The position numbers and the translations under genes are program-made. Shown piece after piece: positions 7,766 to 53,880 of a DNA stretch of 53,880 nucleotides. Each line of letters begins with the position of its first letter. The stretch's first letter is position 1. The DNA is from Caballeronia turbans (GTDB taxonomy: Bacteria > Pseudomonadota > Gammaproteobacteria > Burkholderiales > Burkholderiaceae): NCBI GenBank assembly GCA_001544655.2, contig FCOD02000036.1:1-53880 (forward strand), written 5' to 3'. The notes below the pieces were generated by a model, which worked only from the letters and a program-made list of their open reading frames with translations, was not told the DNA's origin and ran no database searches.

Positions 7766-8246
7766 AAGGCCTCCCGAAAGCCATCGTTGTCTCCGCCTTC
7801 GCGTGGGTTTCGCTGGCCGCATCAGCGAGTGACGTTGATCCCGCGGGCGTGACGGTTTCACATAGCGGATCGAAACCCTCTGTACAGGGCATAGCGCAGC
7901 GCTTCATGGGGCAAGTTCGCATCGACCCGCTCTTTCAGTCGAACGCGCCCTCTCGCCTGTCAGGCGGCATGGTTACATTCGAGCCGGGCTCTCGCACTGC
8001 TTGGCATACGCATCCGCTAGGGCAGACCCTCATCGTTACGTCTGGGAGAGGCTGAGTTCAGCAATGGGGGCAGGAACGCCAGCAAATCGTCGCTGGCGAC
8101 GTTGTGTCGATTTCTGCTGGCGTCAAACACTGGCACGGCGCGACGTCGACCACGGTGTAACGCATGTAGCGCTTCAAGAGGCACTCGATGACAAGAATGT
8201 CAACTGGTTCGAACAGGTCACTGAGGAGCAATACCGTCAGCCCTGA
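7762..8246 (+). pseudogene. Second cupin gene, inactivated by a stop and a frameshift
   Basis: This frame begins ATGAAAGGC overlapping the previous stop and has an export signal (residues 1-22, ending AASA). It then follows the neighbouring cupin closely: [29 protein letters not shown]. At 8053-8055 a TGA replaces the codon expected to be Trp (GRG-stop-VQQWG against GCGWTQC in the intact copy). Reading on gives [13 protein letters not shown], then another stop. The remainder (THVALQEALDDKNVNWFEQV) continues in a different frame to 8246, so one base has been lost near 8155-8160. Two independent lesions suggest real decay and not a sequencing slip. Confidence 0.8.
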
Positions 8247-43904: not shown

Positions 43905-44126
43905 TCAATTATCGTAGTTCGCTTGCTCGCTACTGACGATGGGTCGGAACATTTGGATCAACGCGTTGCCATCTTGAAGATAGGCGACGACTACACGAGC
44001 AGTGCGCAGCGAAACCGATTCGCGGACGGGCGGCGCCGTACTTCCATCATGCAATTCGAATGCGAAACGATGGACCTTTTCATGCCCTTCCGGCAGTCCG
44101 GTATGGCCCCAAATTGTTGCTCTCAT
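43905..44126 (-). CDS. Hypothetical small protein (uncertain)
   Basis: A 73-residue frame with codon use similar to real genes in the window. The product has HRFAFELHDGSTAPPV, then SVSLRTARVVVAYLQDGNAL. I know no family. The start (ATG at 44126) lacks a recognisable ribosome site, so the frame may be remnant. Around it, 43717-44279 holds nothing else I can support. Confidence 0.3.
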   Translation of the reverse strand: MRATIWGHTGLPEGHEKVHRFAFELHDGSTAPPVRESVSLRTARVVVAYLQDGNALIQMFRPIVSSEQANYDN

Positions 44127-44279
44127 GCACGTACAAAAGGAATTTTTCGAGGAGAGGTCGTATGCTTTTCCAGCTACGTCCCCGTGAACTGAAGCTTGGC
44201 CGCGAAGACGTGAGAAAGCCTGCTTCGAACAGCGCTCGGTTGACTTCGATCGGATGCCTACGCGCGTGCGCAGAAGCCT

Positions 44280-44462
44280 TCAACCTGCTTCCACTTCAAC
44301 CCGATCTGGATGGAGGCCGCAGTCGATCGCCTGTTGCTCGACATCTTCGGCTGACTCACAGCCGGCTATCGCGCCAAGTTCTTCGTCGCCGGCAAACAGC
44401 TTTCCGGACCATTGCCCGTTCGGCGCGCGGTAGATGCGCAATATGATCGTGTCGTCTGCCAT
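44280..44462 (-). CDS. Small conserved-looking hypothetical protein
   Basis: A 60-residue acidic protein: MADDTIILRIYRAPNGQWSG, KLFAGDEELGAIAGCESAED, ending DRVEVEAG. ATG at 44462 has GGGAG seven bases upstream, which is better than the longer frame to 44495. The strand-turn pattern suggests a small beta-alpha fold. I do not know the function. It sits between DUF3606 and DUF2382 genes in the stress block. Confidence 0.6.
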   Translation of the reverse strand: MADDTIILRIYRAPNGQWSGKLFAGDEELGAIAGCESAEDVEQQAIDCGLHPDRVEVEAG

Positions 44463-44649
44463 GGCCGTCTCCCAGGAATTTTTTGCAGGATACACGCGCG
44501 CGCTGGCACGCGTCAGTAGCGCCGCGTGGCGCAGGCATACGCTATGTGCGCTTGTGATGCGGACGGGGCGTCAGAGCCCTGTCGCGTGAGCATCAGGCGC
44601 GTTCGCATCGTCCGATCGAGCTTGAGGGCGTCAAGACAACCCCGGTCGC

Positions 44650-44669
44650 GATTTTCACCAGTGAAAATC
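44650..44669. repeat. Perfect palindrome GATTTTCAC-CA-GTGAAAATC
   Basis: Nine-base arms around a two-base centre, in the 447-base gap between genes at 44462 and 44910. Nothing else in 44463-44909 looks coding. The shape suits a dimeric repressor site. Similar TTTTCAC/GTGAAAA palindromes occur at ends of some IS elements, so a scar is possible. Confidence 0.45.
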
Positions 44670-44909
44670 CCCTCCTCCGCACTCGCCCAAAAGCCTCACC
44701 GTTTATAACGGGAGTCGTCACGGGTGCTGTCTTCTCGGAGGGCGCCTCTTCCTCTTCGGCCCTGACCCGTCAAAGGCATGCCCTATAAGCACGGTCAGAC
44801 ACCGAATGGGAAATGCCGCCTGCCGATCTGGGGCGTCCGCGACAGGCACATCCGTTGCGCTGGATGAAAAGCGCTGCAGGCGCTCCTTTTACGTTCATAG
44901 GAGGAACGG

Positions 44910-45339
44910 ATGCGAGAGGACGAGAATACCGGCGCGATTCCAACGCCCGATTCACTCAGCGAAGTGCGCGTCGCGGCAGTCCAGGAAAACATTGCGGCCG
45001 GAATCGAGACGGTGGAAACGGGTTGTCGTCCATGAAGAAGAGCATCCTGTCTCGCTGCAACTCCGTAGTCAGAAGGTCGACGTTCAGCGCATACCCATCA
45101 ACCGGCCGGTCGAAGAGAAAGAGGAGCCACGGCGCAAAGGCGATACCCTCGTCATCCCAATCTACGAGTATGTCCCAGTGGTCCGGATGCAGCTCACCTT
45201 GAAGGAAGAGGTGCGCGTCAGGACCACCGAAGCGCAAGAAGACGTGACGTCTCGCGTGCTGACAAACTCAGAAGAACTCGTCGTTGAGCGTCGCGACGGC
45301 CCGAACGGTCCATGGAAAAAAGACCGATCATTCGACTGA
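44910..45339 (+). pseudogene. DUF2382 stress protein, frameshifted
   Basis: The start is unmistakable: AGGAGG five bases before ATG at 44910, reading MREDENTGAIPTP and then SLSEVRVAAVQENIAAGIETVE. After codon 36 this frame hits TGA at 45033. The next frame then gives a clean DUF2382 domain (RVVVHEEEHPVSLQLRSQKV, PIYEYVPVVRMQL, VTSRVLTNSEELVVER) ending at 45339. The switch falls at AAA 45016-45018. Removing one A restores ETVERVVVHEEE. The family (YsnF-like) has conserved Glu-rich repeats and is linked to stress response. A sequencing error in the A-run would also explain it. Confidence 0.75.
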
Positions 45340-45426
45340 ATTGACTAGAGGAAAAGCGGAACATTTGTTGCAACACTGCCAGACACTCAGACACATTGGT
45401 CCTTTAACTTGTTCGGAGAACTTGAA

Positions 45427-46278
45427 ATGGCACAAACGATAATCGGCGTATTCGACACGTTCGAAGCGGCGGAGCGCGCTCAAACGCGACTTGAGTCGGA
45501 AGGCATCGCTCGCGCGCAGATGGAAATTCATCGCGCGACTACCGGGGACATCTCGGCGACGGGCGGTGATCCGACGGGCCGGTCTGTCACTAGTGAGGTT
45601 GCGGACGACGGACGTCACGATGTGCCCATAAGCGGCATTGAACACTTCTTCAAAAGACTGTTCGGCGGCGACGACGAACCTGAGGAGATCGGCCACTATC
45701 ACGAAGCAGTTCGTCGAGGGGGCGCATTACTTTCCGTGGAGGTCAACGACGAAGCATCTGTGGAACGGGTACGGGACGCACTGTATGCATCAGGCGCGGT
45801 CGACATCGACTCGCGCGTCGCGCAGTGGCGCAGTAGCGGATATACGGGCTACGACCGCAACGCACCCACCTACACCGCAGACGAAATCGCGGCAGAACGT
45901 AAAGCTTTTCCGGTCGTCCAGGAAACGCTGGAGGTCGGCAAGCGCGAAGTGCACACGGGCGGCGTTCGCGTATATTCCCGCGTGACCGAAACGCCGGTCA
46001 GTGAATCAGTCAATCTGCGTGAAGAACGCGCAACCATTGAGCGCAGAGCCGTGGACCGTCCGGCGACCGCAGCTGATCTCAAGGAAGGCTCCGTCGAAAT
46101 TCGCGAAACACAAGAGCAGCCCGTGGTTGCCAAAACCGCGCGTGTCGTTGAAGAGGTGGTGGTGGGCAAGGAAGCGTCAACCAGGACGGAGACCGTCAAC
46201 GATACGGTACGTGGCACCGAGGTAGACGTCGAAAGAACGGAGGGTACCGATGGAGGTCCCCGCCGTCATCCCGGTTAA
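45427..46278 (+). CDS. DUF2382 domain (YsnF/AvaK-like) stress protein
   Basis: A 283-residue protein. The N-terminal part (about 1-120) has the general-stress-protein-17-like fold: MAQTIIGVFDTFEAAERAQT, a Gly-rich linker, then HYHEAVRRGGALLSVEVND. The C-terminal DUF2382 (about 150-260) has VVQETLEVGKREVHTGGVRV, VNLREERATIERRAVDRPAT and AKTARVVEEVVVGKEAST. Members are soluble and of unknown activity, often near CsbD and DUF883 genes as here. ATG at 45427 follows GGAGAACTTGAA. Confidence 0.9.
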   Translation: MAQTIIGVFDTFEAAERAQTRLESEGIARAQMEIHRATTGDISATGGDPTGRSVTSEVADDGRHDVPISGIEHFFKRLFGGDDEPEEIGHYHEAVRRGGALLSVEVNDEASVERVRDALYASGAVDIDSRVAQWRSSGYTGYDRNAPTYTADEIAAERKAFPVVQETLEVGKREVHTGGVRVYSRVTETPVSESVNLREERATIERRAVDRPATAADLKEGSVEIRETQEQPVVAKTARVVEEVVVGKEASTRTETVNDTVRGTEVDVERTEGTDGGPRRHPG

Positions 46279-46305
46279 TAAGCCGCCGCTTTAAAACCGG
46301 TAGGT

Positions 46306-46345
46306 GGGGATGAGCGCGAAACGGCCGCGCCCGTCCCCTTTGTTT
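46306..46345 (+). terminator. Rho-independent terminator
   Basis: A 13-bp stem with one wobble and one mismatch (GGGGATGAGCGCG at 46306-46318, CGCGCCCGTCCCC at 46326-46338), 7-base loop, then TTTGTTT. It lies 27 bases after the DUF2382 gene. Confidence 0.7.
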
Positions 46346-46380
46346 CTCGTCTACATCAGCTCTCGCGTTTGGAGGAAGCC

Positions 46381-46734
46381 ATGGCGAAGACGGTCCACGA
46401 ACCGGTCGACTCCCTGATCACGGAGAAGGCCGACACAACCTATGAATTTCCGACCAGCGCAAACCACGGCGCGTCGAGTGGAGACACTCAGCCGCCCGCG
46501 ACCGCTGGGGACGGCAATCAACGCGAAGCTTCACAGTCTGGAAACAGCCAGTCATCAGGCGACGACGCGCGCGCAAACATGAAAAACAAGCTCTCGGACG
46601 TACAAGATACTGCCGTTGAAAAGTACAGACTTGCGACGGAGACGACTGACGATTTTGTGCATGACAACCCTTGGAAGGCGATTACCATCGCTGCACTTGG
46701 AGGCGTGATCATTGGCATGCTGGTTTCGCGGTAG
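46381..46734 (+). CDS. DUF883 (ElaB/YqjD-like) membrane-anchored protein
   Basis: A 117-residue protein with a long hydrophilic, Ser/Gly/Gln-rich N-terminal half, then an amphipathic helix (MKNKLSDVQDTAVEKYRLAT). The C-terminal HDNPWKAITIAALGGVIIG is a single transmembrane helix diagnostic of DUF883. E. coli YqjD and ElaB bind ribosomes and anchor them to the inner membrane in stationary phase. GGAGGAAGCC immediately precedes ATG at 46381. The N-terminal extension is longer than in YqjD. Confidence 0.88.
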   Translation: MAKTVHEPVDSLITEKADTTYEFPTSANHGASSGDTQPPATAGDGNQREASQSGNSQSSGDDARANMKNKLSDVQDTAVEKYRLATETTDDFVHDNPWKAITIAALGGVIIGMLVSR

Positions 46735-46809
46735 ACAGATGCGAACTGCTGCCTAGACCATCGTCGAGCGACGTATCGCCCGCCATGGCTGCAGAGCGCC
46801 GCTGACGGT

Positions 46810-46852
46810 CTGGCGGACGGGCCCGACACGGGCCGGCACACGAGTCCGCCAG
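46810..46852. terminator. Long GC-rich hairpin between convergent genes
   Basis: Perfect 9-bp outer arms CTGGCGGAC (46810-46818) / GTCCGCCAG (46844-46852) enclose a second small stem (GGCCC/GGGCC). It lies between the convergent DUF883 gene and the secreted-peptide gene and could stop transcription from either side, but no T-run follows. Confidence 0.3.
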
Positions 46853-47004
46853 CATGACTGCTGAGCATGCGCGCCGCGGGTCTGCCGGGCGTTATAACAC
46901 GAACCGTTTGCTCTTCTGTCCGCGCTGCGCGATATGCTGTGGATGGACGCGGTCAACACTCAATGGCCCCTCCCGCCGGACCACGTCGGGGAGGGACTGG
47001 AGCT

Positions 47005-47262
47005 TCACTGTTTTATTTTGCCGGTCGCCTTTCCATTTCCGTCCGTCCCCGAAGCGCCATCCGGCGACATGCCCTTTTCACGTTGCTGCATCAGTGTGGG
47101 GCCGCCTGGGGTGCTTGCCCCGCTAGAAGCGCTGTCGGCCGCTTGATTCGTCGCGGCGCCGTTCTGAGTCGTTGGTGACGGCGCCTTCTGCGTGGTTTGC
47201 GCGAACGCGCTCGTGCCGGTCGCTACAAGGAGGACGCTTAATAAAGCTGAGATGCGATTCAT
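47005..47262 (-). CDS. Small secreted protein, low complexity
   Basis: An 85-residue protein with a clear signal peptide (MNRISALLSVLLVATGTSAF ending AFA-Q, cleavage near residue 22). The mature part is rich in Thr, Ser, Gly and Gln (TQKAPSPTTQNGAATNQAAD) and has no fold I recognise. Likely periplasmic and disordered. It ends beside a GC-rich hairpin and lies downstream of the CsbD gene on the same strand. Confidence 0.7.
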   Translation of the reverse strand: MNRISALLSVLLVATGTSAFAQTTQKAPSPTTQNGAATNQAADSASSGASTPGGPTLMQQREKGMSPDGASGTDGNGKATGKIKQ

Positions 47263-47312
47263 GGCTGTCTCCGGAGCCTTTCACGGCTTCCCTCATTCTT
47301 GAACCAGATAGA

Positions 47313-47534
47313 TTACGGCGCGACGGAACCCGGGTCACGGTCACGATCCGCCGCCCCACTGGCTGCGTCTTTCGCATCCTCTTCTGCGTTGCCGACTTGT
47401 TTTCTTGCCTCGCCGCCAATTTGCTGAGCGTCGCCCTTCGCCTCCTGCGCGGGATCGTCCGTCATCTTGCCGACACCCTCGTTGATCTTCTCCTTCACCT
47501 TCTCTCCGACGCCTTTCACCTGATCTTCATTCAT
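47313..47534 (-). CDS. CsbD-family stress protein
   Basis: A 73-residue CsbD-like protein: MNEDQVKGVGEKVKEKINEG, then VGKMTDDPAQEAKGDAQQIG, a helical Lys/Glu/Gly repeat pattern. CsbD is a sigma-B general stress protein in Bacillus; in proteobacteria it is induced by osmotic or oxidative stress, function unknown. GGAGCGCGGCC precedes the ATG. Confidence 0.9.
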   Translation of the reverse strand: MNEDQVKGVGEKVKEKINEGVGKMTDDPAQEAKGDAQQIGGEARKQVGNAEEDAKDAASGAADRDRDPGSVAP

Positions 47535-47635
47535 GGCCGCGCTCCTGATGCGCCTGCGGATCGCAAGCGCATATAGCGACGCAAAAAAGATGCCTTGAAA
47601 TAAGGGCCGTCTATAGTGAGACGAGGAGGCGAGAA

Positions 47636-47842
47636 ATGTGGCAATCGTTCGAGATCATGCTGGAACGCCAGTCCGGCGGCTGGGTCTTGGCAGCCTTTCT
47701 ATCAAACGCGGAAGATGGCACAGCTATCATGGTCGGACAGTCTTCGGAAGCTTTTGCTACCGAAGAAACGGCGCGTCTTAACGCAGAGCGCTCGTTGCAC
47801 GACCTCTACGACAAGCCTATAGCGGACGAGCGACAAGCCTAG
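47636..47842 (+). CDS. Small hypothetical protein
   Basis: A 68-residue acidic protein (MWQSFEIMLERQSGGWVLAA, FLSNAEDGTAIMVGQSSEAF, ATEETARLNAERSLHDLYDK). The strand-strand-helix pattern is like small dodecin-size domains. GAGGAGGCGAGAA precedes the ATG at 47636, which makes this frame better than the overlapping one at 47616. No family recognised. Confidence 0.65.
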   Translation: MWQSFEIMLERQSGGWVLAAFLSNAEDGTAIMVGQSSEAFATEETARLNAERSLHDLYDKPIADERQA

Positions 47843-47869
47843 GGGCATGGCCGTTGCTCTATTCGCACC

Positions 47870-48310
47870 ATGACACATTCAAAGACTGTCATGGTCGCGA
47901 CGCCTGGATTATGGACCGATCGCCTGTTTGACCGCGTGTTGCCGCCGGTCGTCGTGCTCATTGTCGACGACGATACGGCCGGCGCGCAGGCGTTGGCTGC
48001 GGTTGTTGTGGTTGAAGGTTTTCGGGCGACGGTCGTTGAGAGTGGCCCCGACGCCTTCCGAATGCCGCTGGCGACAACGCCTCACGTCGTGATTCTCGAT
48101 ATGGAGATGCCCGCGTGCGATGGGTTCGCGGTGGCTTCAGCCATGCGAGGCTCCAGCCGCTTCGCGAACACGCCGATTATCGCCTACACCTCGCTGGCGG
48201 AAGCGGATGTGGAGGAACGTGGCAAGCAGGCGCAAATCGATGCTTTCTGCCGCAAAGGCATTTCGATCCAGCCGCTGCTCGATCTCATCGAACATGTCGC
48301 ACCCGTCTAA
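47870..48310 (+). CDS. Receiver-only response regulator
   Basis: A 146-residue protein that is one CheY-like receiver domain with a 25-residue N-terminal lead. The acidic pocket is LIVDDDTAG (Asp 33-35), the phosphoacceptor is Asp77 in ILDMEMPACDGF, with Thr107 in AYTSL and Lys129 in FCRKG. No output domain follows, so it must act by protein contact. No histidine kinase is in the window. It starts 27 bases after the previous gene; the ribosome site is weak. Confidence 0.85.
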   Translation: MTHSKTVMVATPGLWTDRLFDRVLPPVVVLIVDDDTAGAQALAAVVVVEGFRATVVESGPDAFRMPLATTPHVVILDMEMPACDGFAVASAMRGSSRFANTPIIAYTSLAEADVEERGKQAQIDAFCRKGISIQPLLDLIEHVAPV

Positions 48311-48540
48311 CTTCCGAGCGCGTCAATGGCTCATCCACTGCAGCGCGCGCTGGGCCGCCTCGGTTGACCGAAAGCTTCGACGGTCGTCACGCATCGCTTG
48401 CTGCGGTTCGGTGCCTTCCTTCGATCCCGAACCGGTCGCTGAAAGCACGTCGGTCGGAGGAGTCTGGTTATCTTCGTAGGGACCGGTCGAGCGAAGCGAC
48501 ACCGGGCGGCAACCACGTTGCGCCGGACACAGTTTCGCGT

Positions 48541-48600
48541 GAAAAGAAAAACCCGCTCGATTGAGCGGGTTGAATCCATATCGGTGGACATGGAGGAGAC
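48541..48600 (-). ncRNA. Candidate small RNA with anti-Shine-Dalgarno segment
   Basis: On the minus strand a strong promoter (48607-48634) and a Rho-independent terminator (48550-48571 followed by TTTTTCTTTT) delimit a transcript of roughly 60 bases with no gene in it. Its 5' part reads GUCUCCUCCAUGUCC, complementary to ribosome binding sites of the GGAGGA kind. A small CCAU/AUGG hairpin and the terminator stem follow. This architecture is that of a trans-acting sRNA. I cannot match it with certainty to a named family. Confidence 0.6.
48550..48571 (-). terminator. Terminator of the candidate sRNA
   Basis: A 9-bp perfect stem AACCCGCTC / GAGCGGGTT with a 4-base loop. On the minus strand it is followed by TTTCTTTTC, so it works in the minus direction, although no minus-strand protein gene lies upstream of it. 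Confidence 0.75.
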
Positions 48601-48606
48601 AGGGTT

Positions 48607-48634
48607 AGTATAAACCCTTATCGCCGGAGTGCAA
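48607..48634 (-). promoter_or_regulatory. Sigma-70 promoter of the candidate sRNA
   Basis: TTGCAC (minus strand, 48634-48629), a 16-base spacer, then TATACT (48612-48607). Each hexamer is one mismatch or less from consensus at the key positions. The predicted start is near 48600. Confidence 0.6.
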
Positions 48635-48723
48635 GGCCATCCAGGATTGGCAACCGATCCGCCCTCCTCGTTCGCCTGGCCCCGGGCGCAAGGCTTGCGC
48701 CTCTGGCGACAGGAGGTGCCGCC

Positions 48724-49008
48724 ATGAAAGCGACAGCGTTCTTGGAACAAGCCAAACGGGAAGCGCAACTCATCGATGCGCTTTTGGTTGCGCGCTATGC
48801 GCTCGTCATCCATGACGGCATGACGCTGTTGGGCGACGACGAACCACCCACGCGGTGGCGAGCCAGTTTCAAGGCCGAGCTTCGGCGCATTGACGCGGCT
48901 CTTGAGATGACGGGCATCGACACGCAGCGACCGCTTCGCCCGCCGATGATCGGGAACGACGCAGGGTACGATGGCGACGGCTTGCCGCCGGACGCGGACG
49001 ACGAATGA
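48724..49008 (+). CDS. Hypothetical protein ahead of ligD
   Basis: A 94-residue acidic protein, helical in its N-terminal half (KATAFLEQAKREAQLIDALL), with an Asp/Gly-rich tail (NDAGYDGDGLPPDADDE). AGGAGG lies seven bases upstream of ATG at 48724. It ends one base before the likely ligD start, so the two are probably coupled. No family recognised; not the LigD phosphoesterase domain. Confidence 0.6.
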   Translation: MKATAFLEQAKREAQLIDALLVARYALVIHDGMTLLGDDEPPTRWRASFKAELRRIDAALEMTGIDTQRPLRPPMIGNDAGYDGDGLPPDADDE

Positions 49009-49009
49009 C

Positions 49010-50968
49010 ATGGGGCGATGGAATGGTTCGCGCGCGACGACGCGCGTACGCCCTCTCGAGACTGCGCCAGGCGAAATGCCGGCCCTCATCGAGCCACAAC
49101 TGGCCACATTGGTGGAGCGACACCCTGCGAAGGGAGATTGGTCCTACGAGATCAAGTTCGACGGCTACCGAATGCTCGCTCGCATCGAGTTGGGCAACGT
49201 CAAGCTGATCACCCGCAACGGACACGATTGGACAGAGCGCATGCCTCGGCTGCGAGACGCATTGGCGGGCCTGCCCGTCGGCAGCGCATGGATTGACGGC
49301 GAGGCGGTCGTGCTGGACGCCAGTGGCAAGCCCGACTTCAATGCGCTGCAGAACGCGTTCGACCGGCGCAGTACGGCAGACATCGTCCTGTATGTCTTTG
49401 ATCTTTTGTGGCTCAACGACACTGACATCCGCGAGCAGCCGCTCCGGTCGCGCCGGGCCCTGCTTCACGAGTTGATTCAGAGCGTTGCGAGCCCTCTCCT
49501 TCGCTATTCCGACGATTTCGCCGAGGACCCGACCTCGCTCGTCGCATCGGCCTGCAAGATGAAACTCGAAGGCATCATCGGCAAGCGCGCCGATGCGCCG
49601 TACCGCTCGGGACGTTCAAACGACTGGATCAAGCTCAAATGCAATCTCAGGCAAGAGTTCGTGATTGGTGGCTTCTCGCGTGTGAAGGGCGCCAAGACGG
49701 GCGTGCGCTCGTTGTTGCTGGGCGTCTACGAACAAGACGGCACGCTCAGGTATGCGGGCCATGTTGCGCCTCATCTGACGCCCTCCCGCAGTGCCGCGTT
49801 CAACAAGCGCGCTCAAGCCTTGTTTCAGCCTCAGCCCACCTTCTACAACGCGCCTGAACCCGAGCGCGATCGCGAGTTCCATTGGCTCGCGCCGGACATT
49901 GCGGCGGAGGTGTCCTTCCTGGAGTGGACGCCCAATGGAGAAATCCGGCATCCCGTGTTTCATGCCCTGCGCGAAGACAAGACTGCGCGGGCGGTCACGG
50001 AAGAAAAGGTCGTCGACGATCCACAAGCAGGACATGTCGGCTCGACACGGGAACGACCCGGTCCCCGCGGCACGGTCATGGTGGGCGACATCAAGATCAG
50101 CAACCCACAGCGCGTGATGGATCAGGCCTCAGGCCGCATCAAGCTCGACATCGTGCGCTACTACGACGCGATCGCGGAGTGGGCGCTGCCCTACCTGCAC
50201 GCCCGGCCGCTTGCGCTCGTACGTGCGCCTGACGGGATTGCGGGTGAACTGTTCTTTCAGAAGCACTCCGAGCGTGCGCGCATTCCCGGCGTGGAAGAGT
50301 TGCCCGTAAGCGTCTATCCGGGACACAAACCGCTGCTGGTTGCTAACACCGCAGACGCACTGGTCGGGCTCGCTCAGATGAGCGTCGTCGAGATCCACTC
50401 ATGGAACGGCGTGGCGCCCGATCTGGAACACCCCGACCGTGTCATCTTTGACCTCGATCCCGATCCCGCGTTGCCTTGGTCCGCAATGTTGGAAGCCGCA
50501 TCACTCGTCAAGGTCGTGCTCGACGAACTGGGTCTACGCTCCTTTGCGAAGACGAGCGGCGGCAAGGGATTTCACATCGTCGTGCCGCTCACCCGCCGGC
50601 AGGGATGGGAGGAGGTCAAGCTTTTCTCACAAGCGGTCGCACAGCACATGACACGCGTCGTGCCGCAGCGATTTTCAGCCGTCCTGGGCCCGAAAAATCG
50701 AGTCGGCAAGATCTTCATCGACTATCTGCGCAATGGACGAAGCGCCAGTACGGTGGCCGCGTTTTCGGTGCGCGCCCGCCCGGGCATGGCGGTATCGATG
50801 CCGATATCGTGGGATGATTTGACGGAGGTAAAAAGCGGCGACCAATGGACGATGGCGCAAGCCATCCACCGACAACGCACGCTTGCAGCGGACCCATGGG
50901 AAGGCAACTGGCGCACGCGGCAAGGAATCACTGCCGCGATGCGACGGGCGGTCGGCATGAAGCGCTAG
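49010..50968 (+). CDS. ligD: DNA ligase D, ligase-polymerase form
   Basis: An ATP-dependent DNA ligase fused to a primase-polymerase, 652 residues from ATG at 49010. The ligase domain comes first (about 25-330): adenylated Lys49 in YEIKFDGYRML, YVFDLLWLN, and KLEGIIGKRADAPYRSGRSN. The polymerase domain follows (about 370-650) with VIFDLDPDPALPW metal Asp residues and KTSGGKGFHIVVPL His. The N-terminal 3'-phosphoesterase domain of Pseudomonas LigD is absent. LigD acts with Ku in bacterial non-homologous end joining; no ku gene is in the window. The longer frame to 48971 overlaps the preceding gene and lacks homology. Confidence 0.93.
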   Translation: MGRWNGSRATTRVRPLETAPGEMPALIEPQLATLVERHPAKGDWSYEIKFDGYRMLARIELGNVKLITRNGHDWTERMPRLRDALAGLPVGSAWIDGEAVVLDASGKPDFNALQNAFDRRSTADIVLYVFDLLWLNDTDIREQPLRSRRALLHELIQSVASPLLRYSDDFAEDPTSLVASACKMKLEGIIGKRADAPYRSGRSNDWIKLKCNLRQEFVIGGFSRVKGAKTGVRSLLLGVYEQDGTLRYAGHVAPHLTPSRSAAFNKRAQALFQPQPTFYNAPEPERDREFHWLAPDIAAEVSFLEWTPNGEIRHPVFHALREDKTARAVTEEKVVDDPQAGHVGSTRERPGPRGTVMVGDIKISNPQRVMDQASGRIKLDIVRYYDAIAEWALPYLHARPLALVRAPDGIAGELFFQKHSERARIPGVEELPVSVYPGHKPLLVANTADALVGLAQMSVVEIHSWNGVAPDLEHPDRVIFDLDPDPALPWSAMLEAASLVKVVLDELGLRSFAKTSGGKGFHIVVPLTRRQGWEEVKLFSQAVAQHMTRVVPQRFSAVLGPKNRVGKIFIDYLRNGRSASTVAAFSVRARPGMAVSMPISWDDLTEVKSGDQWTMAQAIHRQRTLAADPWEGNWRTRQGITAAMRRAVGMKR

Positions 50969-51040
50969 ACAGGTAGCATTTCATGCCGGTGGAGTAGACA
51001 ATCAGACCTTAGCCATGTCACTTACGCGCCTCGGTGCCCT

Positions 51041-51238
51041 TCAGTTCATCGTGCTTGTGTGAGTGCGTCGCCGCATATTGAGTTCGAAGTGGGCGCCCTT
51101 GCCGCTTCTCGTCGGAGGAAAATGTTCGCCCTCCACACACGTGACTTCGAACGTATCCTTGCCATCGTCATGAACGACGGAATAGATGCCGGACACCTTG
51201 ACTATCTCACCGGGCTTATACGAATTGTCGCCTGCCAT
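51041..51238 (-). CDS. YjzC-like small protein
   Basis: A 65-residue protein beginning MAGDNSYKPGEIVKVSGIYS, then VTCVEGEHFPPTRSGKGAHF, the pattern of short YjzC-family proteins. GAGGAGG precedes the ATG. It is convergent with ligD. Members may bind metal or nucleic acid, but the usual Cys pair is replaced here (PTRSGKG). Confidence 0.65.
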   Translation of the reverse strand: MAGDNSYKPGEIVKVSGIYSVVHDDGKDTFEVTCVEGEHFPPTRSGKGAHFELNMRRRTHTSTMN

Positions 51239-51324
51239 CGTTGCACCTCCTCAGTAAAGCACAAAAACCGTTGAGCAAGGCGCGTTCCGAGTGGCTTTCG
51301 GCAGGCGGCTGCCGCTGCCCACGA

Positions 51325-51938
51325 TTATGCGGCGAGTCGATGCTCGTAGTAGGGCCGGTCTCGGTCCTCGAGAATCGCATCGAGTGCGGCGAGGTCGGAC
51401 GCCTGCGGATTCAACCAGGCGTCGACGTTCTCACGTTTGATCGGGACGATGCAGCGATCGTGGCCTGCGGCTTCCACCTCGGCAGGCGGCTCGTCTGTGA
51501 TGGCGGCAAACGAGAGGAGCTCCGGCTGACCGGGAGCCGTCCACTTCGACCAGAGACACGCGACCATCAACAGCTGACCGTTGTTGGGCCGAAACTCCAG
51601 GACGACATTTTCACCAGGCGCCTGTGGTCCGTCATGCGTCTCGAACAATGTGTTCTCGCACTTCGCGCGCGCGACATTCTCATAGAAGACGTCAACGAGC
51701 ATCAGCCCATGTGTGTAGCCAAAACACGGCTTCCAGAACTTGTCCAGGCTATCGCGCCGCGCGTTGTACGTGCCGGGGTACTTAACATCGTAGTGCGCGG
51801 GCTTCCCCGCGATGCGACATTGATAGCGCATCGGCTTGACGACATACTGCCCGTCTTCGACCACCAGCACGGGGGCGTAGTAGCCGGGGAAAATGCGGGA
51901 GTCCCGCGGCTCTTGTTCAGTTCGACCAAAGTCAGCTG
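51325..51938 (-). pseudogene. SRAP (HMCES/YedK-like) protein, C-terminal part only
   Basis: From RTEQEPRDSRIFPGYYAPVL onward the frame is a good match to SOS-response-associated peptidase (SRAP) proteins of the longer Burkholderiaceae type: KPMRYQCRIAGKPAHYDVKY, KCENTLFETHDGPQAPGENV, LSFAAITDEPPAEV, AAGHDRCIVPIKRENVDAWL. The N-terminal part with the catalytic Cys2, which crosslinks abasic sites, is missing. It is replaced by an unrelated sequence joined at about 51935. So the gene is probably non-functional despite an open frame extending to 52149. Confidence 0.8.
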
Positions 51939-52109
51939 CATGATTCCGATCAGCAGCACCGCGAGCGCCAGCAGACCCGCGCCCGGAATACCCATGACAA
52001 TGAACGCGACACCTATGAGCAGCATCTGGATGAACGCGATCCCGACCACGCCTTGAGCGACCGCGCGAATGGTGGCCGTGCAGAGATCCGCGATCTGCGC
52101 GCCATTGTC
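51933..52109 (-). pseudogene. AI-2E family transporter, internal fragment
   Basis: A 59-codon segment reading DNGAQIADLCTATIRAVAQG, VVGIAFIQMLLIGVAFIVMG, IPGAGLLALAVLLIGIMQL. This is the central part of a YdiK-type AI-2E/PerM permease. Both ends are cut: the lower joins the SRAP fragment out of frame, the upper ends near TCTAGAG just before the IS element. It is a deletion scar. Confidence 0.75.
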
Positions 52110-52139
52110 TAGAGAGCGTCAAGCAGCGCGGCCGGTCGT

Positions 52140-53800
52140 GTTGCCTCACGGAATGATGTTACTCCCGGCTAGTTGTCACCGACGAATCGCGTTGTGGTGA
52201 AGGCTGGCGCTGCGTAGCAGTGTCAGCCTTCACCACTTCGGCGTCGGCGCCGCTGAGTATCCGGGTCACCAACTCCCTCGCTCGGTCCGATCGCCACACT
52301 TTCACCCGGCGCTGCAGGGTGCGTAGTTGCGCGCCGGAATACAGCGTGGGAGCCATCGCGGTGAGGCGCTCGTATAGCTGCTTTGCGGTAATGCCGGGTT
52401 CGGTTTCGAGCCACTCCAGTATCTTCGGCCAGGTATGTTCGAACGGATCTTCGCGAGTGCGCCAGTCATGTGGGACGCGCGCTTTGCGGTGATGTGTCGG
52501 TCGAATCTCGCCGGCTTGCCACGCTGTCCCGAGACTGGACAGGAAATCGGAGAGTGGAACCTCAGTTGCTGTCTTCGTCGACGCTGGCGGCCCGCTAGCA
52601 GCGCTGCTTTGTGCAACGCGTTGTTGTGCTTCGCGAATTCGATGCAGCAGATCCAATGGATCGAGCCTACGAAACCGCGCGCGAAGACTACGTTTGGTCG
52701 CCTCGGGAATAGATGGGGATCGCAAGACGCGCTCAAGCGGCGTCAACGGAGCTTCATAGCGCTTCGTCACCTTGGCGCCGTGACGAGTCTTCGATTTCAG
52801 TTTGAATGATGGCTGGAAGAAGTTGATGTACAGCCGTGACACTTGATAGAGAGAAGCAAGCGTTTCTGTGGCTTCAAGACCTCGCAGCCTGCCGTAGCCC
52901 ACAAGGCGGCGGACGATGGCGCCATTCTTTTGCTCAACCCACGCTTGATCATTCTTCTTATAGGCACGCGAGCGCGTCAGCTCGATACCCGTTGCCTTGC
53001 AGAAGTCGAAGACAGCCGCGTTCATGAAGGCGCTATCGTTATCGCAGTCCAGACCACGCAACGGAAACGGTAAGGCAGCGCTCACCTGCTCGACGTGCTC
53101 AAGAACGAACGCGCCGCTGCGAACCGGCATAGCGAGGCACTCGGTCCAACCCGTTGCGATATCCGTCATCACGAAGCTGTGTACAAAGTCGCCGTCGATC
53201 TTGGTCCCACCGCAATGCTCAACGAAATCCACCTCGAGATAACCGGGTAGCGGGTCGTTCCAGTCAGTGAAGGTCCTGACCGGCACCGCGCGGCGAATCG
53301 CATTGCCGATTCCGCCAGCCCGCCGGCGCTGGCCGCTGAAGGCTTGCTCGCGCACATCCCGCAGCAGCCGATCAATGGTCGCGGCGCTGATCTGCTTGAG
53401 CCGCTGACGCAGGTCCTTCGGCAGCGACAGATGACCATGCCGTGTCATCGAGTCGATCAGCGTCGGGATGAGCGCCTTCAGGCGTTTGCCGCAAATCCGG
53501 TCAGCAGCCTCCCATAGCGTAATCAGCGCGGCACGAACGTCATCGTCATAGCGGCGCTGCGGGCCCGGCTTCGCCTTCGGCGGCTGCGGCTCTCGGCATA
53601 GCACCCGGATTGCGTGCTTACGATGATAGCCCGTCAATTGAACGAACTCGTCCAGGATCTGGCGCTTGTCGTTCCGGTCGGAGCGGCGGTACCGCTCTCC
53701 AACTGCCTCAGTCAACTCCCGTCTCGTTGTCATGCTGAGCCGCCTCGTCATAAGTCGCCCCCGCCAGCCGTCTGACAGGTAGCAAAATACTTGAGGCAAC
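52140..53800 (-). mobile_element. Insertion sequence, IS481-like/ISNCY-like
   Basis: The element encloses the transposase. Its ends share GTTGCCTCA (52140-52148) and, inverted, TGAGGCAAC (53792-53800). After these, similarity continues loosely inward (TGTTAC / TGCTACC). No target-site duplication is visible at these limits, so the true ends may lie further out, for example at the nested repeats at 53804-53879. The transposase frame is intact. Confidence 0.65.
52159..53751 (-). CDS. DDE transposase (rve integrase catalytic domain)
   Basis: A transposase of about 530 residues. The N-terminal region has a helix-turn-helix (ILDEFVQLTGYHRKHAIRVL). The rve core follows, with catalytic Asp in LEVDFVEHCGG, Asp in GLDCDNDSAFMN and Glu in NDQAWVEQKNGAIVRR. 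A C-terminal domain is rich in Arg and Lys. Starts at 53751 or 53733 are equally plausible. The family is close to IS481/ISNCY-type elements; I cannot name the element. No internal stop or frameshift is seen. Confidence 0.85.
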   Translation of the reverse strand: MTRRLSMTTRRELTEAVGERYRRSDRNDKRQILDEFVQLTGYHRKHAIRVLCREPQPPKAKPGPQRRYDDDVRAALITLWEAADRICGKRLKALIPTLIDSMTRHGHLSLPKDLRQRLKQISAATIDRLLRDVREQAFSGQRRRAGGIGNAIRRAVPVRTFTDWNDPLPGYLEVDFVEHCGGTKIDGDFVHSFVMTDIATGWTECLAMPVRSGAFVLEHVEQVSAALPFPLRGLDCDNDSAFMNAAVFDFCKATGIELTRSRAYKKNDQAWVEQKNGAIVRRLVGYGRLRGLEATETLASLYQVSRLYINFFQPSFKLKSKTRHGAKVTKRYEAPLTPLERVLRSPSIPEATKRSLRARFRRLDPLDLLHRIREAQQRVAQSSAASGPPASTKTATEVPLSDFLSSLGTAWQAGEIRPTHHRKARVPHDWRTREDPFEHTWPKILEWLETEPGITAKQLYERLTAMAPTLYSGAQLRTLQRRVKVWRSDRARELVTRILSGADAEVVKADTATQRQPSPQRDSSVTTSRE

Positions 53801-53879
53801 GAGCCTAGTGTCTTGAGTTAAAAATTCGTTGCCTTATTTGCGTGATGTACTAACCTGGATTGCAGGGTTCGCAAATAAG
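53792..53879. repeat. Nested inverted repeats at the right edge
   Basis: Outward from the transposase: TGAGGCAACGA pairs with TCGTTGCC (53826-53833), and CTTATTTGCG (53833-53842) pairs perfectly with CGCAAATAAG (53870-53879). Between them lies the 28-bp sequence 53804-53831 that recurs inverted at 51-78. Such nested repeats are typical of transposase-binding ends. Confidence 0.6.
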
Positions 53880-53880
53880 C

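Follow-up and report, generated by a model that had tools for sequence, protein, structure and literature searches.

The locus

The window, as we call the whole 53,880-nucleotide stretch of Caballeronia turbans DNA analysed here, contains a divergent pair made up of a minus-strand small RNA (sRNA) and a plus-strand gene for a 94-residue protein, p94, the latter followed by a ligD-like gene. The features concerned, with the basis for each, are:

48543..48601, minus: sRNA of family RF02278, 59 nt (Rfam 58 bits vs gathering 50; model positions 1-64 of 64)
48629..48634, minus: -35-like element TTGCAC, 16-base spacer to the -10 (sequence)
48607..48612, minus: -10 element TATACT (sequence)
48607..48617, minus: GGGTTTATACT, promoter element common to class D and E copies, overlapping the -10 (9/9 occurrences precede RF02278 copies)
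48595..48601, minus: free 5' heptamer UGUCUCC, presumed seed (unpaired probability 0.98-1.0)
48575..48594, minus: hairpin 1, 8 bp, loop CACC, without the second anti-Shine-Dalgarno stretch of other copies (computed fold)
48550..48571, minus: terminator hairpin, 9 bp (T-rich tail 48549-48543)
48685..48701, no strand: inverted repeat GGCGCAA-GGC-TTGCGCC in the p94 leader (sequence and alignment of 13 divergent regions)
48724..49008, plus: p94, 94-aa protein, divergent from the sRNA (15/19 p94 loci with a divergent RF02278 copy)
48971..50968, plus: ligD-like gene with NHEJ ligase and primase-polymerase domains, after p94, exact start uncertain (domain matches)

Downstream of p94 and ligD lie a YjzC-like gene (below the Pfam cut-off) and a SRAP gene; an integrase-core (rve) transposase-like gene (52159-53799, minus) adjoins the SRAP gene at the contig end. 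The p94 protein has no match in Pfam, NCBIfam, PHROGs or PADLOC. A minus-strand ORF called mechanically at 48331-49107 spans the sRNA site and overlaps the conserved p94 gene, and is presumably spurious. The GGCGC and TTGC parts of the inverted repeat are kept in the 13 aligned divergent regions; the repeat could be an operator or an mRNA hairpin.

The sRNA is a member of the RF02278 family

At gathering scores Rfam finds a single match in the window, to RF02278 (Betaproteobacteria_toxic_sRNA, also called double-hairpin RNA), with E = 3.8e-9 taken over the full window; the sRNA reaches 58 bits, the covariance model's gathering score being 50. Two hairpins, of which the second is an intrinsic terminator, are present as in the family, and so in the model alignment is the 5' segment UGUCUCCUCC; the second CU-rich stretch that the consensus carries in hairpin 1 is absent, the loop being CACC, and the score does not require it. 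The window sRNA is thus a further member of this known family. The next-best family at the site, RF02837 (anti-hemB), shares a CU-rich stretch and a terminator with it; at 27.9 bits against a gathering score of 49.5, membership was rejected. A phage origin was rejected too: phage records gave no match, and viral contigs did not contain the promoter-sRNA pattern.

Folding of the 64-base stretch 48541-48604 is unusually stable (z = -6.3; 0/200 shuffles equally stable), and the structure is upheld by compensatory changes. In 101 distinct RNA sequences (classes A-E, defined below), 1286 of 1311 pair cells hold standard pairs, and both partners have changed in 7 of 13 pairs; a control in which the pairing partners were slid gave 37-44% pairing and one or two pairs with two-sided changes.

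Generic scans of 44000-53880 contributed little. They found 11 terminator-like sites, the sRNA's own included, where 9.4 are expected by chance, and missed the sRNA promoter because TTGCAC agrees with TTGACA at only 3 of 6 positions. As a consensus scan cannot tell promoter or terminator from chance, conservation had to decide: weak by themselves, these features are made those of a real sRNA by their conservation. The promoter element, the 5' segment and both hairpins recur in RF02278 copies of the genus, bearing out the conservation expected in a preliminary description of this DNA made from sequence alone. Its promoter and terminator also stand as drawn: TTGCAC at 48634-48629, N16, TATACT at 48612-48607, the 9-bp stem and the T-rich tail. 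Where it put about 60 bases between promoter and terminator, the distance from the -10 to the stem is 35 bases; it is the whole transcript, at about 59 nt, that fits its predicted length of 55-65 nt.

The free 5' end is complementary to the heptamer most closely tied to start codons in the sampled genome

In the computed fold the heptamer UGUCUCC is free, while UCCAUGUC, directly 3' of it in the window RNA, sits in hairpin 1. The segment originally singled out as complementary to GGAGGA-type ribosome-binding sites (RBSs), GUCUCCUCCAU, is therefore half buried in hairpin 1, its free part being UGUCUCC. Complementarity of the 5' end to RBSs is upheld; the choice of site is not. Since the next bases are paired in hairpin 1, most of a match to GGAGGA is inaccessible, and GGAGACA is the site complementary to the unpaired part.

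The frequency of this site was determined in the 22 bases before the start of 281 genes called from 400 kb of the window genome. GGAGACA is the commonest heptamer there (9/281 genes, rank 1 of 3376); GGAGGA occurs ahead of only 4. Because the choice of start codon could bias such counts, the test was repeated without ORF calling, ranking heptamers by association with an ATG at RBS distance in two separate 400-kb samples (800 kb in total). GGAGACA again ranked first, of 14,619 heptamers, with an ATG at 24 of its 43 sites against a base rate of 10%; in the two halves taken separately it ranked 1 and 2. The register at sRNA positions 2-8, which reaches one base into the stem, ranks 2, and deeper registers fall to between 978 and 6529. 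AAGGAGG, which is near the classic consensus, ranks 1021 in the window genome sample. In smaller outgroup samples (200 kb each) GGAGACA ranks 210 in Paraburkholderia and 44 in Cupriavidus; 100 kb of E. coli held four sites, too few to rank. Against attaching weight to the match stands the consideration that any anti-Shine-Dalgarno RNA would match some RBSs.

Candidate targets

The preliminary description linked the sRNA to stress genes with starts at 44910, 46381 and 51238. This link did not survive comparison with the 281 background genes: the three have ordinary Shine-Dalgarno sequences, complementary to the sRNA over 6, 7 and 6 bases respectively, and 20%, 6% and 20% of background genes show complementarity as long, while 10%, 4% and 13% equal them in duplex energy. 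An earlier background set of 320 genes, derived by long-ORF calling with no codon-position filter, was dropped for its implausibly few Shine-Dalgarno sites; it placed the three genes at 9%, 3% and 11% by energy, near the later values. Two sites not named in that description pair as well or better—47636, which has the lowest duplex energy among the nine local sites tested, and 47262, an exact GGAGACA. The ATG at 44910 opens a frame that ends after 41 codons. A longer ORF lies in a different frame within 44806-45339, possibly a frameshifted gene; plasmid matches to about 45025-46233 are annotated as YsnF/AvaK proteins.

GGAGACA occurs at 16 sites in the window, 7 of them with an ATG at RBS distance. 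A plus-strand ORF lies opposite one of these, at 7794 (minus), which is probably a chance occurrence; the remaining six precede genes for a LysR regulator, two periplasmic binding proteins, an HpcH/HpaI aldolase, a short-chain dehydrogenase and an 85-aa protein without family. A larger set was assembled from the 800 kb, using a slightly different pattern and retaining ORFs of at least 80 codons (stop included) with coding composition, which left 17 ORFs as against the 24 sites above; all were scanned. They encode a MalK-like ATPase, a periplasmic binding protein, an AcrB-type pump, an MFS transporter, PEP carboxykinase, an alcohol dehydrogenase, a GMC oxidoreductase, an enoyl-CoA hydratase, an HMGL-like enzyme, an isochorismatase-like enzyme, two L-PSP (RidA-like) proteins, a 2Fe-2S protein, a metallo-beta-lactamase-fold and an APH-fold protein, a response regulator and one protein without family. 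Twenty control genes were picked and 17 scanned, one having been dropped as a shorter reading of a target ORF and two as short; about half of the 17 are likewise metabolic or transport genes. The excess of catabolic and transport genes among the seed-matched set is thus suggestive and not clear against controls. It agrees with B. cenocepacia, in which the predicted targets are transport and carbon genes (PMC5688073).

RF02278 copies in the genus and their classes

The window genome has six RF02278 matches, five of them over the cut-off, and the window copy is the lowest-scoring of those five. The sixth, at 34 bits, carries GUCUCCUCC followed by a different hairpin and terminator; matches of 31-40 bits resembling it recur in most of 20 genus genomes, and may represent another sRNA family. 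These 20 genomes, chosen partly for carrying relatives of the window locus, have 5-13 RF02278 matches each, 146 in total. Of 61 genomes drawn, 51 gave a match at E <= 0.001 and 43 one over the cut-off; all 37 genomes of the genus among the 61 match, as do 14 of the 24 from other families of the order.

We sorted 129 distinct copies (score at least 25, fetched loci) into classes by promoter and hairpin loop, leaving out 23 of 152 rows, lower-scoring and nearly all opposite-strand or chance matches. Classes A to E comprise 34, 20, 20, 22 and 29 copies, with 4 unplaced; the copies come from more than the 20 genomes, and these counts are not per-genome rates. The 5'-terminal GUCUCCUCC is kept in all A-D copies and in 25 of 29 E copies. 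As to the second stretch, CCUCC is found in bases 12-26 of all A (34/34) and all C (20/20) copies and in none of B (0/20), D (0/22) or E (0/29), and the shorter CUCC in the same bases of 20/20 B and 8/29 E copies. The window copy belongs to class E, and has the one-site form.

The p94-ligD neighbourhood

The p94 gene is present in 18 of 58 genus genomes, and in 10 of 150 genomes (2 of 25 genera) drawn from the family; more distant matches came from five Paraburkholderia plasmid records. The 20 genomes were scanned for p94 as well as for RF02278: an RF02278 match accompanies 15 of 19 p94 loci, always divergent and with 108-132 bp between the 5' ends. The four lacking it are two partial p94 matches, a locus in genome G079 that keeps p94-ligD and one in G065. 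A whole or partial ligD follows p94 in 12 of 14 fetched contexts and an Hfq-like gene in the other two (G006, G030).

These data bear on two other readings. In the first, the window copy is a paralogue that is redundant or in decay and is transcribed weakly if at all, regulation being left to other copies. Its place as lowest scorer of the five copies over the cut-off would accord with decay, as would the G079 locus, which keeps p94-ligD with no recognisable RNA, and the altered 5' segment in 4 of 29 class E copies; but promoter, 5' segment and both hairpins are intact in the window copy, and the divergent arrangement is kept in 15/19 loci although the flanking DNA diverges. We consider such decay unlikely. 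In the second, the sRNA or its promoter would serve mainly to control p94-ligD locally, as the divergent pair, kept at 108-132 bp in 15/19 loci, and the presence of GGAGG in most p94 leaders might suggest. Nothing stands out, however, in how the 5' end pairs with the p94 leader, the match being of 5 bases, a length reached by 44% of background genes, and the energy reached by 29%; p94 was accordingly rejected as a preferred target. Moreover, most class D and E copies at other places lack p94, which is found within 1 kb in 5 of the 80 listed loci described in the next section. A mainly local role seems less likely still than decay.

A promoter element confined to RF02278 copies in the genomes searched

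The conserved RNA 5' end, the U at 48601, lies five bases past the -10. A TTGCA-like box is frequent, though not invariant, in class E copies, and GGGTTTATACT covers the -10 in classes D and E, with a few variants within E; class A copies have a similar ATAGGGGTTTTTACT about 45-60 bases upstream of the RNA. In the window's own genome AAGGGTTTATACT occurs twice, both times at RF02278 copies. The nine occurrences of GGGTTTATACT in five genus genomes (35 Mb) all fall at RF02278 promoters; the reversed control occurs once. Allowing up to three mismatches, GGGTTTATACT-N6-GTCTCCTCC was found at 17 places in 7 of 10 genomes, with no matches to the control; 16 of the 17 are RF02278 copies, the exception being a place with three mismatches. 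With a gap of 6-7 bases, the exact pattern was found in 115 stretches among 84,980 genomes. The 80 of these that were listed are all from Burkholderiaceae by record title, Robbsia, Trinickia and Mycetohabitans being genera that we take to belong there; inspected by eye, each of the 80 runs on into a hairpin starting in the CUCC segment. Judged by these matches, GGGTTTATACT is a promoter element exclusive to RF02278 RNAs within the genomes searched. A common upstream motif of the B. cenocepacia double-hairpin RNAs, mentioned in a supplementary figure (PMC5688073), may be the same element.

The placing of the promoter also tells against regarding the site as the terminator or attenuator of a longer minus-strand transcript, with no independent sRNA. 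Terminator-like sites do occur near the chance rate in the region, and Bordetella S17 (PMC11722255) and B. cenocepacia ncS27 (PMC5688073) are processed from longer RNAs. Yet the conserved promoter stops five bases ahead of the conserved 5' end, and the minus strand upstream is the start region of the divergent p94, making this reading very improbable. That the AUG at RNA positions 11-13, after the CU-rich segment, opens a short peptide gene can be dismissed, as loop lengths among copies differ by non-multiples of three (by inspection), so that the frame is not kept, and the frame would enter the terminator.

Plasmid copies and hfq

The 20 genomes have 59 Hfq matches, of which 5 are less than 1 kb from an RF02278 match; random placement would give 0.13. 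The five Hfq-adjacent copies represent two arrangements, and none is the window copy. Relatives of hfq adjoin RF02278 copies at G030:C62 and G021:C21.

The sRNA-promoter stretch of the window has matches in 32 records of named plasmids; 12 of the 32 were looked at, one of them without annotation. On two Caballeronia plasmids, NZ_CP084269.1 (4001-4482) and NZ_CP084276.1 (3001-3482), hfq is annotated 131 bp downstream of the RF02278 copy on the same strand, and NZ_CP084269.1 is evidently the record behind one of the five Hfq-adjacent copies. In the second arrangement (L155 7193-8058; L156 7254-8119) the RF02278 copy is followed by a divergent p94-like gene and then, where ligD would otherwise stand, by an Hfq-like gene whose product shares 40% identity with plasmid Hfq. 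Plasmids NZ_CP014582.1 (3001-3078) and NZ_CP134199.1 (3001-3052), of 23 and 30 kb, carry RF02278-like copies with the GGGTTTATACT promoter near parA and a replication gene.

As a general rule, partnership with p94 or hfq is contradicted by the 80 listed pattern loci, in which p94 lies within 1 kb in 5 and an hfqA match in 2, some loci ending nearby.

Discussion

Much about the family is in print: the existence of several copies, the anti-RBS stretches, growth inhibition on overexpression and, for a relative, Hfq-dependent repression (PMC4603805, PMC5688073, PMC7011215, PMC11722255). A free-standing sRNA with an RBS-complementary 5' end, as the preliminary description proposed for this locus, is already known from B. 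cenocepacia and Bordetella relatives (PMC5688073, PMC11722255). In the parts of the literature available to us we found no published account of the seed-RBS ranking, of the exclusivity of GGGTTTATACT, or of the p94 and plasmid-hfq links.

The closest counterparts are the B. cenocepacia double-hairpin RNAs ncS03, ncS05, ncS27 and ncS62 (PMC4603805, PMC5688073), which the window sRNA resembles in family score, length (about 57-67 nt), two hairpins, an RBS-complementary CU-rich 5' segment and several dispersed copies per genome. It departs from them in having no second CU-rich stretch, in its place within an accessory branch that has the GGGTTTATACT promoter, and in its pairing with p94. We rejected ncS35 as a relative, the text available of its paper giving no Rfam match and another structure. 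Bordetella pertussis S17, whose authors note its likeness to RF02278, is similar in the type of 5' segment, RBS pairing and terminator (PMC11722255). It differs in having a Site 2 in the loop, which the window sRNA does not, and in that RNase E releases S17S from a 190-nt precursor, whereas the window promoter abuts the RNA 5' end (PMC11722255). By the comparison in PMC5688073, the Neisseria sibling sRNAs NmsR / NgncR_162 and 163 work alike, two CU-rich stretches pairing with the RBSs of metabolic genes; by the same description they are arranged in tandem and differ in sequence.

Relatives are expressed as short RNAs, and inhibit growth when cloned in E. coli or overexpressed (PMC4603805, PMC5688073). 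Overexpression of ncS27 slows growth and its antisense silencing speeds growth (PMC5688073). S17, which is not toxic in E. coli BL21, represses a target by pairing with the RBS, and binds Hfq as seen by co-precipitation (PMC11722255). For the window copy the analysis establishes membership in the family, a fold upheld by compensatory changes, a conserved promoter, a seed accessible in the computed fold and its match to the RBS; that it is transcribed, at what times, and that it binds Hfq and represses, we infer. The dedicated promoter, with GGGTTTATACT over the -10, would make a 59-nt RNA ended by the intrinsic terminator; its unpaired 5' UGUCUCC would pair with GGAGACA, the heptamer most tied to ATG in the sampled genome, and so compete with the ribosome and lower the translation of many mRNAs at once, genes of transport and catabolism being likely targets. 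Competition with the ribosome is the simplest mechanism, by analogy with one target of the Bordetella relative. Hfq would probably take part, as the preliminary description envisaged; Hfq dependence is plausible from the co-precipitation of S17. The window sRNA is thus probably a broad RBS-blocking regulator, and we hold with reasonable confidence to the whole of this reading: an RF02278 member with its own promoter, whose 59-nt RNA blocks GGAGACA sites through its free 5' end and lowers the translation of many mRNAs. Counting against it, the window copy scores lowest of the five and is without the CCUCC stretch of classes A and C.

More tentatively, class E might constitute a mobile, largely accessory branch of RF02278, its members being translation-damping modules fitted to the host's favourite RBS heptamer, with one exclusive promoter element and a dedicated partner, p94 or a plasmid Hfq, p94 acting on the RNA as its regulator or effector; we regard this as possible rather than likely.

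In the literature available to us the RF02278 family is called toxic and its role is left open. That the seed is the complement of the start-linked heptamer offers a simple reason for the growth inhibition, in that the RNA could occupy very many RBSs. This match and the partner genes of the accessory copies are the more interesting leads. If the accessory-branch reading is true, accessory replicons bring with them their own brake on host translation; and if the link with p94 and plasmid hfq has a function, riboregulation kits would travel with plasmids and accessory loci, and p94 would gain a first handle.
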